From: Candidatus Poribacteria bacterium
GTDB lineage: Bacteria > Poribacteria > WGA-4E > B28-G17
DNA length: 34,875 bases
Assembly: GCA_021162805.1 (NCBI GenBank)
Contig: JAGGXZ010000192.1
Location: 1 to 34,875 of the forward strand
Direction of reading: 5' to 3'
Each line of letters opens with the position of its first letter. Within the stretch, counting starts at the first letter, position 1. Position numbers and translations under genes: made by a program. A model generated the notes under the pieces. It was not told the origin of the DNA and ran no database searches. It saw only the letters and a list, made by a program, of their open reading frames with translations. This document shows, piece after piece, positions 27,420 to 34,875 of the stretch.

Positions 27420-30400
27420 ATGCGAGAGATATCCGAAAACGCTATGAGGATATTGAGGGCCAAGTACCTGCTTGAAGGGGAAACGGTTGAGGAGATGTTT
27501 CACAGGGTCGCCAGCGCCGTCGCCCAAGCCGAGGCTGAAAGCGAGAAGTGGAGCTCGATCTTCTATGATCTGCTTTCAAGCTGGGATTTCGTTCCGGGAG
27601 GACGGATACTCGCCGGGGCCGGAACTCCTAACGGACAACTCTTTAACTGTTTTGTCCTGCCCATAGAGGACTCGATGGAGAGCATCTTCGAGACCCTTAA
27701 GAACGCCGCCTTAGTGCTGAAAGCCGGAGGCGGAACGGGATTCTCCTTCTCAAGGCTCAGGCCCAAGGGAGATGTGGTCGCCACCTCAAGGGGGATAGCC
27801 TCCGGACCGGTCTCGTTTATCAAGGTTTTCGACTCAGCGGCGGGGATCATTCGCCAGGGAGGGATGCGCAGAGGAGCTAACATGGCGATCCTGCGCGTGG
27901 ATCACCCGGATATTATGGAGTTCATCTCATGTAAGGCCAGGGAAGGCGAGCTTAGCAACTTCAACATATCGGTCGGAGTCACGGATAAATTCATGGAGGC
28001 GCTTGAAAGGGACGAGGAATTCCCCCTCATCCATCCTAACACCAAGAAGGTCGTGAAAAAGCTTCCCGCTAGGGAGATATTCGACCTGATGGTCGAGATG
28101 GCATGGCGTAACGGCGAACCGGGGGCCGTCTTCCTCGACACGATAAACAGGTTCAACCCCACCCCGGCCTTGGGCGAGATCGAATCCACCAATCCGTGTA
28201 TAGTGGGCGATGCTCTCGTGGCGACGGAGCACGGATTGATGAGGATGGAGGAGTTGGTAAGGCGGTATGCCGAGGGAGGAATAAGGGTCGCCGTCGATAG
28301 AAGAATGCTCGGAATGAGCCAGATGCTTTTTGAAGGCACAACCGGCCAACCCATATGGGCGATCGAGGAGGGAGTGGAGTTCCTTCCCATCTCCAGGGCC
28401 TTCAAAACGGGGGTGAAACCGACGGTTAAGGTGACCACGAGATCGGGTTGCGAGCTGATCCTCACCCCGGATCACAAGGTGATGACAACCCGGGGATGGG
28501 TTCCCGCCGGCGAGCTCATACCCGGCAGGGATGAGATCTTCATCCAGTCCGGAGCAGGCCTGTTTAACGATGAAAGGAAACTGCCGTTTGAGGTTCGAAA
28601 TGAATATAAGGGATCAAATGGAAGAACCTACAGGCTGAACCTGCCTGGGGAGTGGTCATATGAGCTGGGGTTCGTTCTGGGATGGCTCGTCGGGGACGGC
28701 TGGGTGCGCAGCGGAGATAAAAACTGCCGTGTCGGTTTCACCTTCGGCGAGGACGATCTGGAGGTGATGGAGGAGATAAAGAGGATCGTAAACGGATGGT
28801 ATGGGGCCGATATCAAGCCGGTTAAGAGGGGAAACGGTATCTATCATCTGTCATATCACAGCCGATTCCTCGTCGATTTCTTCCTCAAGCTTGGGGTAAA
28901 ACCGGTCAAGGCGGCGGAGAAGGAGGTGCCGGAGAGCATCTTCGGCGCGCCACGAGATGCCGTCATCGGCTTCCTGCGAGGACTGTTCACGGCCGATGGG
29001 ACAGCCGAGTATTACGAGGAACATGGGATCTTCTACGTCAGATTGACCTCAAAGTCCTTGAAGCTTCTCAAAGGGGTGCAGCTGCTTCTCCTGAACCTCG
29101 GAATAAGATCTAGAATCTTCGATAGATCTAGACCTCAACGGAGCGGTTTCAAATACCGAACCGTTTCAGGGGAGGAGAGGGTTTATAAACTTGACGGTAT
29201 CTGCTACGAGCTCAGCGTAACCCGCCAGAACGTGAAAAAGTTTGCGGATATGATCGGCTTCCACGGCGGTAAACATTCGGATAAACTCGATCGAATGATT
29301 CACAGACGGCTTCGCCGCGAGAACTTCATCGACGTGGTTGAATCCGTTGAGAAGGACAGACGCCGCACCGTTTACGACCTCACGGTTCCCATCGCCCACT
29401 CTTTTATTACAAATGGAATAGTTATATCAAATTGTGGCGAACAACCTCTTTTACCGAACGAAGCTTGCTGTTTGGGCTCCATAAATTTAGCAAATCTTGT
29501 TAAAAATGGTGATTTCGATTGGGAGAGGCTGGGCGAGGTCACGCGGCTGGCGGTCAGGTTCCTCGATGACGTGATAGATGTGACCAGGTATCCGCTCGCG
29601 GAGATCGAGAAGATGTCGAAGGGAAACCGAAAGATAGGGCTGGGCATTATGGGCTGGGCGGATGCTCTTTATCAGATGGGGATCCCCTACGATTCGGAGG
29701 AGGGAATCGAAAAGGCCGAGGAGGTGATGAAGTTCATAAATGAAGCCGCATGGGGCGCCTCAGAGGAGCTGGCCAGGGAGAAGGGACCGTTCCCGTTCAT
29801 AGAGCACGCCGTGAAACCGGATTGGCTCCGACGGAACGCCGCCGTCACGACCATCGCTCCTACGGGCTCCATATCGATGATCTCCGAGGCCTCCTCCGGA
29901 ATAGAACCCGTTTTCGCACTTGTCTATTACAAGAAGGTGCTGGAAGGAGAGAAGCTCCCGGAGGTCAACAGATATCTCGTTCAGGCGCTGAAGGAGAAAG
30001 GGCTTTACTCGGAGGAGCTGATCAGGAAAATAGAGGAGAAGGGCTCGATAAGGGAGATACCGGAGATACCCGAGGAGATCAAGCGAGTGTTCGTCACCTC
30101 CATGGACATAGCGCCTGAGTGGCATGTCAGGATGCAGGCCGCCTTTCAGAAGTACACCGATAACGCCGTGTCCAAATGTCTGGCTAAAGGCACACTGATT
30201 CCAACTAACAAGGGGCTTATACCTATCGAGGAGTTAGGTTTTGCTAGAGGAGATGATGTCTTCGCCGATCCTATCAGTGGGTTAAAGGTCGTCGGTCCCG
30301 ATGGTAAATGGCATGACGTCACAGCTCATTACTCCGGTGGAATTCAGAGGACAAAGATCATCCGATTGAGCAATGGGACGAAAATCGAGGGGACATTCAA

Positions 30401-31463
30401 CCATAGGATAATGACGATCAACGGGTGGCGTCGTCTAGACGAGCTGAAACCCGGTGATCTAATAGTTTGTACGCGCCCTGTTTCTTCCGGGAAATTGGGG
30501 GAAATACCCGGGTGGGTTATTGGTATTGGGTTCATTGGGTTATTGGGTTCATCGGGCAGTAAACTCAATATATCCTATAAACCCTATAACCCAATAAATC
30601 CTGTAACTTTCCTGTTAAATCCGGCGGACGGCAGACAGTGGACAGCGGACGTTGAAGATCGATATCTCGTGAAGGTGGCTGAGATCGAAGAAGGTGAGTC
30701 AGAGGTATATGACATAGAAGTCTCCGAAGTGCATAGCTATGTCGTGGACGGTGTGATCACTCATAACACGATTAACCTCCCACATGAGGCCACCAGGGAG
30801 GATGTAGCAAGGGCGTTCAAGCTCGCCTATGAGCTTGGATGCAAGGGGATAACCATCTACCGCTACGGCAGCCGTGAGGAACAGGTGCTCAACCTCGTCT
30901 CAGAGGAGAGGAGGAAGGAGACGAGAGGCAAAGTTGGTCCTCGTCCTCGTCCCACCGTCACAAGAGGTGCTACTATCAGGATGTTAACCGGCTGCGGCAA
31001 GCTCTATGTGACCATAAACGAAGATGAACAGGGGTTGATCGAGGTGTTCGTCAACGCCGGCAAGAGCGGCGGATGCGTCGCATCGCAAAACGAAGCCATA
31101 GGGAGGCTGATCTCACTGGGACTTCGCTCAGGGGTTGACGTTCAGGCGATAATCAAAGAGATGAGGGGGATAAAATGCCCGCAGCCCGCATGGCAGGATG
31201 GAGAGCTGATCCAATCCTGCGCCGACGCCATAGGCAGGGCGATAGAGCTATATCTGCGCCAGAACGGGAAGTGGGAATCCGAGGCGCAGATCAAGTCGGT
31301 TCAGTTCTCCTCTCCGCCATCGCAGCAGGCAAGTTCCCGGTCATCGTCCATATCCTCGAACGAAGCGGGTATGCCGCCGGAGTGCCCTAAGTGCGGAGGG
31401 CCACTGGAGTTCGTGGAAGGATGCGTCGTGTGTAGGAACTGCGGCTATAGCAAGTGTGATTGA
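27420..31463 (+). CDS. nrdJ: Adenosylcobalamin-dependent (class II) ribonucleotide reductase with two inteins
   Basis: 1347 codons; 738 remain after removal of two inteins (residues 260-671 and 920-1116), normal for NrdJ. Extein marks: WDFVPGGRILAGAG, FNCFVLPIEDSMESIF, LKAGGGTGFSFSRLRP, RQGGMRRGANMAIL, the active-site NPC(GE) motif split by intein 1, TTIAPTGSISMISEASSGIEP, YTDNAVSK|TINLPHEA split by intein 2, then a TSCPD-type domain (AGKSGGCVASQNEAIGRL) and a C-terminal zinc ribbon (CPKCGG..CRNCGYSKC). The enzyme makes dNTP precursors from ribonucleotides using B12. ATG at 27420 follows GGGGAGAGGG. dcd lies 14 bases downstream and is functionally linked. No cobalamin riboswitch was recognised. 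Confidence 0.95.
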   Translation: MREISENAMRILRAKYLLEGETVEEMFHRVASAVAQAEAESEKWSSIFYDLLSSWDFVPGGRILAGAGTPNGQLFNCFVLPIEDSMESIFETLKNAALVLKAGGGTGFSFSRLRPKGDVVATSRGIASGPVSFIKVFDSAAGIIRQGGMRRGANMAILRVDHPDIMEFISCKAREGELSNFNISVGVTDKFMEALERDEEFPLIHPNTKKVVKKLPAREIFDLMVEMAWRNGEPGAVFLDTINRFNPTPALGEIESTNPCIVGDALVATEHGLMRMEELVRRYAEGGIRVAVDRRMLGMSQMLFEGTTGQPIWAIEEGVEFLPISRAFKTGVKPTVKVTTRSGCELILTPDHKVMTTRGWVPAGELIPGRDEIFIQSGAGLFNDERKLPFEVRNEYKGSNGRTYRLNLPGEWSYELGFVLGWLVGDGWVRSGDKNCRVGFTFGEDDLEVMEEIKRIVNGWYGADIKPVKRGNGIYHLSYHSRFLVDFFLKLGVKPVKAAEKEVPESIFGAPRDAVIGFLRGLFTADGTAEYYEEHGIFYVRLTSKSLKLLKGVQLLLLNLGIRSRIFDRSRPQRSGFKYRTVSGEERVYKLDGICYELSVTRQNVKKFADMIGFHGGKHSDKLDRMIHRRLRRENFIDVVESVEKDRRRTVYDLTVPIAHSFITNGIVISNCGEQPLLPNEACCLGSINLANLVKNGDFDWERLGEVTRLAVRFLDDVIDVTRYPLAEIEKMSKGNRKIGLGIMGWADALYQMGIPYDSEEGIEKAEEVMKFINEAAWGASEELAREKGPFPFIEHAVKPDWLRRNAAVTTIAPTGSISMISEASSGIEPVFALVYYKKVLEGEKLPEVNRYLVQALKEKGLYSEELIRKIEEKGSIREIPEIPEEIKRVFVTSMDIAPEWHVRMQAAFQKYTDNAVSKCLAKGTLIPTNKGLIPIEELGFARGDDVFADPISGLKVVGPDGKWHDVTAHYSGGIQRTKIIRLSNGTKIEGTFNHRIMTINGWRRLDELKPGDLIVCTRPVSSGKLGEIPGWVIGIGFIGLLGSSGSKLNISYKPYNPINPVTFLLNPADGRQWTADVEDRYLVKVAEIEEGESEVYDIEVSEVHSYVVDGVITHNTINLPHEATREDVARAFKLAYELGCKGITIYRYGSREEQVLNLVSEERRKETRGKVGPRPRPTVTRGATIRMLTGCGKLYVTINEDEQGLIEVFVNAGKSGGCVASQNEAIGRLISLGLRSGVDVQAIIKEMRGIKCPQPAWQDGELIQSCADAIGRAIELYLRQNGKWESEAQIKSVQFSSPPSQQASSRSSSISSNEAGMPPECPKCGGPLEFVEGCVVCRNCGYSKCD
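28197..29432 (+). other. NrdJ intein 1 with LAGLIDADG homing endonuclease
   Basis: Residues 260-671 (412 aa). The N-terminal block starts C260-IVGDALVATEHG; block B is TRSGCELILTPDHKVMTTRGW. Endonuclease motifs are LGWLVGDGW (residues 420-428, D426) and FLRGLFTADG (518-527, D526), both with the catalytic Asp. Block F is RRTVYDLTVPIAHSFITNG and block G is IVISN671, followed by +1 Cys672. The penultimate residue is Ser where most inteins have His. The insertion point is NP|C in the active-site NPCGE motif, so Cys672 would be the thiyl-radical cysteine after splicing. Confidence 0.9.
30513..30600. repeat. Inverted array of GGGTTAT-type units inside intein 2
   Basis: Left arm: repeated TGGGTTAT / TGGGTTCAT units (8-9 nt). 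Right arm: the complementary ATAAACCC / ATAACCCA units. ATTGGGTTAT (30534-30543) pairs perfectly with ATAACCCAAT (30586-30595). It is translated in frame as part of the intein linker and reads as Gly/Ile/Asn/Pro-rich sequence. Confidence 0.75.
30623..30650 (+). repeat. Four 7-nt GCGGAC-type units inside intein 2
   Basis: GGCGGAC, GGCAGAC, AGTGGAC, AGCGGAC follow one another exactly at 7-nt spacing. The same word family fills the core of the element at 32275-32424. No inverted partner is present here. Confidence 0.75.
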
Positions 31464-32063: not shown

Positions 32064-32215
32064 CGCTCATATTATCGTTAAGTGTAGCGGAGATCCGGGA
32101 GGTCAGAAATGCTTATTTCTTAGGGTTGGAAGGAGACAGGAAACAGGAGGCAGGGGAAAACCTATATTCCTGTCTCCTATCGATGATATCGCTATACTCA
32201 AGAGAAATAAGAGCG
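32064..32215. mobile_element. 152-bp short inverted-repeat element, copy 1
   Basis: The left end (32064-32094) begins CGCTCATATTATCGTTAAGT and continues GTAGCGGAGAT. The right end (32190-32215), read inward on the minus strand, begins CGCTCTTATTTCTCTTGAGT; 19 of 26 positions pair with the left end. The core holds 7-nt units GGAGACA GGAAACA GGAGGCA (32132-32152) and a perfect 12-bp stem, AGGAGACAGGAA (32131-32142) with TTCCTGTCTCCT (32167-32178). No coding capacity. No clear target duplication: ATAAGATT on the left, CTCTCATT on the right. It starts four bases after the dcd stop. Confidence 0.75.
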
Positions 32216-32274
32216 CTCTCATTTATCTCCAGTAAGAAAATTCGCCAGAAATTACGATGTGAGATCTGGCAGAA
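32213..32274. repeat. Partial element end between copies 1 and 2
   Basis: From 32213 the sequence CGCTCTCATTTATCTCCAGT resembles the element's right-end type (about 17 of 20 positions), but reads rightwards, back-to-back with copy 1 through the palindrome GAGCGCTC (32211-32218). GCCAGA and TCTGGC (32244 and 32265 regions) form a 6-bp inverted pair. It is probably a broken or older copy; the far end is missing or overwritten by copy 2. Confidence 0.4.
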
Positions 32275-32424
32275 CGCTTATATTATCGCTGAGTGTAGCA
32301 GAGATTTTTAAAGCTACCGTCCGCAGTCGGCAGTCCGCCGTCCGCCGTTATTCCGCTGCGGACCGCGGACGGTGGACGGCGGACAATTAGCCATAGATTA
32401 CTACACTCAAGGGAAATAAGAGCG
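32275..32424. mobile_element. 150-bp short inverted-repeat element, copy 2, with 8-bp target duplication
   Basis: The left end is CGCTTATATTATCGCTGAGT then GTAGCAGAGAT; the right end, read inward, is CGCTCTTATTTCCCTTGAGT then GTAG. The direct repeat TGGCAGAA flanks it exactly (32267-32274 and 32425-32432). The core is an inverted heptad array: CCGTCCG CAGTCGG (32317-32330), CAGTCCG CCGTCCG (32331-32344), CCGTTAT, then TGCGGAC CGCGGAC (32357-32370) and GGTGGAC GGCGGAC (32371-32384). No ORF. It looks like a non-autonomous, MITE-like element moved by a transposase elsewhere. Confidence 0.82.
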
Positions 32425-32452
32425 TGGCAGAAAATTATGAGGGTAGATCAGA

Positions 32453-32908
32453 GTGCCGATTAATCGAATCGTCATTAAAAATTACAAGAGCTTGGAGGAC
32501 CTCTCTCTTGACCTGAAGCGCTTTATGGTCTTCATCGGGCCGAATAACGCCGGTAAAAGCAACCTGTTCGACGGTCTGAGCTTCCTTTCAGACCTGGTTA
32601 AGAGCGACCTCGGCGTTATACGACAGAGAGGAAGGTTTGAGCAAATCGTGTTCAACGGGGAAATCGATCGGGTGATCTCCTTCGAGATCTTCGGCGAGAT
32701 GGACATAGACGGTGAAAGTAGACGCTATAGATACCTTATCGAGTTAGAGGGTGACCGCTTTGGAGGTTGCTTTAACAGGAAAGAACTTTTCCTGTTGCTT
32801 CAAGATGATGAATGGCAGAAGATTCTTGAATTTCCGACAGATCAAGGAACCGCCGTTGAGAGAAGTCTTGAAAGCGCTGACCCTTGGAGAGATATGGTTT
32901 TCAGGTAG
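32453..32908 (+). pseudogene. Truncated AAA15/COG4637-like ATPase
   Basis: 151 codons from GTG at 32453. The N-terminal part is typical: INRIVIKNYKSLEDLSLDL, then Walker A GPNNAGKSN and LFDGLSFLSDL. Relatives are about 350-450 residues with Walker B and a C-terminal switch region; all of that is missing here. The product ends abruptly at DPWRDMVFR. An internal deletion is likely, because the start of a DUF4276-like gene (the frequent partner of such ATPases) follows directly. It begins 21 bases after the flanking repeat of mobile element copy 2. Such ATPase pairs are often tied to phage defence, but this copy should be inactive. Confidence 0.65.
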
Positions 32909-34703: not shown

Positions 34704-34749
34704 CATAGAAGGCGGACCGGGACAAGATTAAGACAAGATTAGATGGTAT

Positions 34750-34875
34750 CGCTCATATTTTCGGTGAGTGTAGCAGAGAGCTGATTTGCGTAGTGCGTAA
34801 TGCGTGCGGCGTAAAGCGCCTTACGCTCTACGCCCTACTCTCTACGCCTTGCGCACTACGCTTGATGGATAACCG
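34750..34875. mobile_element. Short inverted-repeat element, copy 3 (runs off the window)
   Basis: The left end CGCTCATATTTTCGGTGAGT then GTAGCAGAGAG matches the copy 2 left end at 27 of 31 positions. The core is a new heptad palindrome: GCGTAGT GCGTAAT (34788-34801), GCGTGCG GCGTAAA (34802-34815), GCGCC, then TTACGCT CTACGCC (34821-34834), CTACTCT CTACGCC (34835-34848), TTGCGCA CTACGCT (34849-34862). If the length is near 150 bp, the right end lies about 25 bases beyond the window. It starts 46 bases after the gltX stop. Confidence 0.7.

Follow-up and report, generated by a model that had tools for sequence, protein, structure and literature searches.

MITEAba12 is a short, gene-less element of constant 113-bp length with imperfect terminal inverted repeats, a known parent (ISAba12) and AT-rich target-site duplications of a fixed 9 bp, which are kept in about 40% of its copies (PMC6382973). 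The hupL MITE of Candidatus Thiomargarita nelsonii has a 19-bp inverted repeat and 10-bp direct repeats (PMC4853749). Among insertion sequence families, both ISL3 and IS256 make 8-bp duplications (PMC7643977, PMC6305408, PMC7780238); in ISL3 elements these accompany 24-bp imperfect repeats (PMC6305408, PMC7643977), and in the IS256 family the duplications are AT-rich and the repeats hold TGTAAA (PMC7780238).

The family described here was found in contig 192 (JAGGXZ010000192.1) of a Candidatus Poribacteria assembly of 4.35 Mb in 232 contigs that is 95% complete; the window is the whole stretch analysed, 34,875 nucleotides long. Like MITEAba12 (PMC6382973), its elements are short and gene-less, with imperfect terminal inverted repeats and fixed-length AT-rich duplications, and the fraction of copies retaining the duplication (36%) is close to that of MITEAba12. 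It differs from MITEAba12 in its 8-bp duplication, its variable centre and in having no parent found. With the hupL MITE (PMC4853749), set beside it by description only, it shares a high copy number, residence in the large genome of an uncultured bacterium and a parent not found in ISfinder.

An 8-bp duplication at copy 2 and across the genome

The window contains three elements, the second of which, copy 2, is the subject of this analysis. The features are as follows.

32064..32215, forward strand: MITE copy 1, 152 bp, with the ends of copy 2 and a different centre
32267..32274, forward strand: left 8-bp target-site duplication TGGCAGAA (direct reading; register-8 test on 58 copies)
32275..32424, forward strand: MITE copy 2, 150 bp, subfamily A (direct reading; DNA search)
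32275..32298, forward strand: left terminal inverted repeat of copy 2, 24 bp (direct reading; 93 left ends genome-wide)
32317..32384, no strand: central palindrome of copy 2 with a 7-bp period, CCGTCCG and GCGGACG arrays (TRF; fold)
32401..32424, reverse strand: right terminal inverted repeat of copy 2, 24 bp (direct reading; 87 right ends genome-wide)
32425..32432, forward strand: right 8-bp target-site duplication TGGCAGAA (direct reading; register-8 test on 58 copies)
34742..34749, forward strand: left half of the copy 3 duplication, GATGGTAT
34750..34875, forward strand: MITE copy 3, 126 bp followed by the contig end, with a 7-bp-period centre

Copy 2 starts with CGCTTATATTATCGCTGAGTGTAG and ends with CTACACTCAAGGGAAATAAGAGCG, both copies of TGGCAGAA abut it with zero gap on direct reading, and near-identical copies (97–98%) are present elsewhere in the genome. 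An open reading frame immediately downstream (32453–32908, 151 aa) resembles AAA_15/AAA_21 ATPases over their N-terminal part only and is possibly a truncated gene.

The flanks of the other copies were checked for 8-bp duplications in the 58 elements for which both ends were present with 20 nt of flank or more. In each, the k bases immediately outside the left end were set against the k bases immediately outside the right end, with k running from 4 to 12. A perfect 8-bp duplication was found in 21 of the 58 elements (36%) and other lengths were not enriched, with no exact match at k = 5–7 or k = 9–12 and one at k = 4. When flanks were paired across different copies as a chance control, one exact 8-mer occurred in 3306 pairings, corresponding to 0.018 expected in 58 elements, so the flanking repeat is not a product of chance. 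The duplicated words differed among copies and were AT-rich at both ends; position 7 was A or T in all 21 and position 8 was T in 16. The preliminary description had taken the repeat at copy 2 as showing that the unit had moved as DNA and as defining its boundaries to the base, and this is borne out by the other copies, which are duplicated too and always by 8 bp.

The 37 elements without a perfect duplication included copy 1, whose flanks ATAAGATT and CTCTCATT agree at four of eight positions and thus form no clean duplication. In six further copies the flanks agreed at seven of eight positions, which can be explained by point changes. In at least one copy, L006, the right flank CTCGCAATT recurs as the left flank of L009, which lies at a contig end; the arrangement resembles two different insertions joined together, and recombination between copies or mis-assembly could have produced it.

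Contigs cut within an element could be paired by their duplications, namely C168 with C84 (GATCTGGT) and C26 with C44 (AATACAAA). The window contig likewise paired with C58, where the left flank of copy 3 (GATGGTAT) and the right flank of the copy at the C58 end (AATGGTAT) agree at seven of eight positions. Several contigs, including that of the window, stop 126–127 bp into an element, as would follow if an assembler using a fixed k-mer had broken there. Repeats of the family fall at contig ends of the assembly, and joins between contigs can be suggested from the 8-bp duplications.

One of the 21 perfect duplications belongs to L143 (QMSU01000163.1). This contig is assigned to a Thermoplasmata archaeon MAG with a name pointing to Guaymas, and in it a full element lies between two copies of TATTTTAT. 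L143 is a second assembly of the locus of the truncated copy L020 with near-identical flanks, and for that reason it is most simply read as a mis-binned contig, probably from the same organism or one very closely related to it. The same locus is borne by contig C197 of the Poribacteria genome.

Family size, ends and insertion sites

A DNA search of the genome with the element returned 57 matches, many of them confined to its first or its last 50 bases: the ends are conserved and the centre is variable. Pattern searches of the genome allowing up to three mismatches detected 93 left ends and 87 right ends, and none with the reversed control. The pattern common to both ends had 196 matches compared with 5 for the reversed control, from which we estimated about 95–100 elements in the genome. 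Copies with paired ends spanned 88–297 bp, and end pairing across the genome gave no credible longer, gene-bearing copy. The 24-bp consensus sequences of the left and right ends were identical at 19 positions.

The DNA search with the element found no copy in 58 relatives. At one mismatch or fewer, the end pattern was absent from 84 further genomes of the phylum, among them that of the one other member of the bacterium's family, and it had no match in IMG/VR. Two matches were obtained in GTDB contigs, L142 and L143; the former sits within a Bacteroidetes protein gene and was taken as chance, and a search of the genome holding the latter gave no further real copies.

Altered copies were also observed. 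L113, L116, L124 and others retain the right end only and begin on the left at a 7-bp-period palindrome arm, as if the remainder had been lost or exchanged at that arm. L026 and L027 (contigs C76 and C26) are split by DNA with CTACCTGACA-type ends (TAGCTACCTGACAGTTTT / AAAAGTGTCAGGTAGCTAG), which is possibly another insertion sequence.

Each insertion site was closed by removing the element and one repeat, and was then examined for an open frame of 130 codons or more spanning the junction within 480 nt. Such a frame crossed the junction at 3 of 53 sites, compared with 75% of random window positions, and persisting insertions are therefore mostly intergenic. Two insertions sit within other repeats: the closed site of L064 reads GTCATTTAAAATAAATGAC, in which a palindrome is restored, and that of L057 is 80% identical over 66 nt to an uninterrupted repeat at L105. 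These two are the nearest approach to empty sites that we obtained. The preliminary description had looked to an empty site in a related strain; none was found in another strain, and the sole second assembly of a locus, L143, also carries the element.

Candidate sources of the transposase

An autonomous relative with the same ends was searched for by the end pattern and was found neither in the bin nor in the other genomes of the phylum or the GTDB contigs; a short-read MAG may lack contigs of multicopy insertion sequences. Long-range end pairing gave two pairs of more than 1 kb (5.4 and 7.6 kb), both of which were rejected because in each the left end is part of a degraded or truncated MITE. 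The transposase families searched in the bin were ISL3, IS1595, IS256 and DDE_Tnp_1. Neither the ISL3 (PF01610) nor the IS1595 (PF12762) transposase had a match in the 95%-complete bin, and DDE_Tnp_1 had one weak match, on contig C45 and more than 20 kb from known ends. IS256 (PF00872) was present as fragments only, one on C214 above the family cut-off and those on C170 and C5 by similarity to C214. The contig C214 breaks off within the fragment, a sign that additional copies may be unassembled. By eye, the IS256 fragment on C170 (L140) adjoins a reading frame resembling the end of an IS1-family transposase, with GGTGTTCTCGACACATGAT as end repeat.

The ISL3 and IS256 families had been named in the preliminary description as places to look for the mobilising enzyme. 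Of this lead, the 8-bp duplications of both families stand in the literature; the bin, on the other hand, holds no ISL3 transposase and IS256 only in fragments, and comparison of the MITE ends with the terminal repeats of the two families gave a convincing match to neither. With IS256 elements such as ISCth4 (PMC7780238), the family shares AT-rich 8-bp duplications, and the end of the C5 fragment (GGTACTGTATAATATTTTGTGTAAA) has GTGTA at positions 19–23, the same position as in the MITE ends, with an overall agreement of 10–11 of 24 positions (p 0.03–0.08 against shuffles). The MITE differs in having no transposase, and its consensus ends contain TGTAG, that is, TGTA without AA, and not the subterminal TGTAAA of IS256.

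Movement by an ISL3-family transposase has in its favour that elements such as ISArsp7 and CLJ-ISL3 combine 24-bp imperfect repeats with 8-bp duplications, as does this family (PMC6305408, PMC7643977), and that ISArsp7 has GCTCTT in common with the MITE right end at positions 2–7. We nevertheless consider it unlikely, given the absence of PF01610 from the bin and ends that differ beyond this short motif, the identity with two ISL3 elements being 6–11 of 24 positions and mostly no better than shuffles. Judged by sequence, the MITE ends are assignable to neither family and the end comparison is not decisive. If an enzyme is to be named, an IS256-like (copy-out/paste-in) transposase is the single best guess, a tentative one with somewhat less than an even chance, and another family making 8-bp duplications is given about the same chance; IS256 is weakly preferred because fragments of it are present in the genome.

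Exchangeable palindromic centres and the spread of the family

Unrelated centres were found between the same ends, forming at least four subfamilies (A, C, D and E), all of which include one or more copies with a perfect duplication. TRF detected 7-bp arrays in all three window copies, those of copy 2 lying at 32317–32348 and 32358–32384, and the whole copy 2 element folds strongly (z-score −5.1). No terminator-like sites were found near this element, and an Rfam search with it gave no match. A 7-bp period runs through much of the centre sequence: the identity of the inner sequences was 0.42 at lag 7, 0.33 at lag 14 and roughly 0.22–0.31 at the other lags, the 0.31 seen at lag 10 being consistent with a second type of centre, GTCATT. 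Comparison of L013 with L006 showed that in L013 one 7-bp-period palindrome is nested within the loop of a second one. Palindromes of this type were also found without MITE ends, as DNA search matches to positions 41–110 or 46–116 of the element only. Elsewhere in the window, a ribonucleotide reductase reading frame (27420–31463, 1347 aa) has intein splicing and LAGLIDADG domains and carries short-period arrays in frame in or near the intein region (30513–30650), among which a GCGGACA 7-bp array at 30624–30650 resembles those of the MITE centres.

We regard the element as very probably a non-autonomous DNA transposon of the MITE type. It has terminal inverted repeats, a duplication of fixed length and a short, gene-less body, and is dispersed in many copies; there is no room in it for a transposase gene, and the surviving copies show an intergenic bias. 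The constant ends, differing centres and perfect duplications in every main subfamily argue for this reading; counting against it are that the bin yielded no transposase with these ends, that a perfect duplication is lacking in 37 of the 58 copies and that other strains gave no true empty site. The occurrence of palindromes without outer ends and the strong folding would also suit a central palindrome that is itself the mobile unit, as a REP-like or hairpin element with the outer repeats as merely frequent neighbours; this is very improbable, since the 8-bp duplication abuts the outer repeats and not the palindrome, and since it is the outer repeats that stay constant around wholly different centres. 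Reading the TGGCAGAA repeat as coincidental, or as an old tandem duplication, and not as a target-site duplication could draw on copy 1, which lies 60 bp upstream without a duplication, but can practically be dismissed in view of the different 8-bp words at 21 of the 58 copies, always in register 8, where 0.018 would be expected.

As a MITE, the element is most likely moved in trans by a DDE transposase. Such an enzyme, made elsewhere, would bind the 24-bp terminal inverted repeats and link both 3' ends to AT-rich, mostly intergenic target DNA with a stagger of 8 bp between the strands, and gap repair after joining would duplicate the 8 bp. The trans-acting transposase and its chemistry belong to the model; the repeats, duplications and dispersal are shown by the assembly.

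The constant-end MITE might further act as a vehicle and insertion target for palindromes of 7-bp or 10-bp period that spread independently, nest in one another's loops and are exchanged into and out of it; we hold such a two-tier mobile system to be a speculative proposal, rather improbable as it stands. If true, many unrelated hairpins would be dispersed by one transposase. In sum, this is a new, high-copy MITE family with an ordinary mechanism and unusual modular centres, for which the ends and the duplication length are now fixed. Its combination of constant ends with exchangeable periodic palindromes allows the spread of hairpins in bacteria to be asked about.
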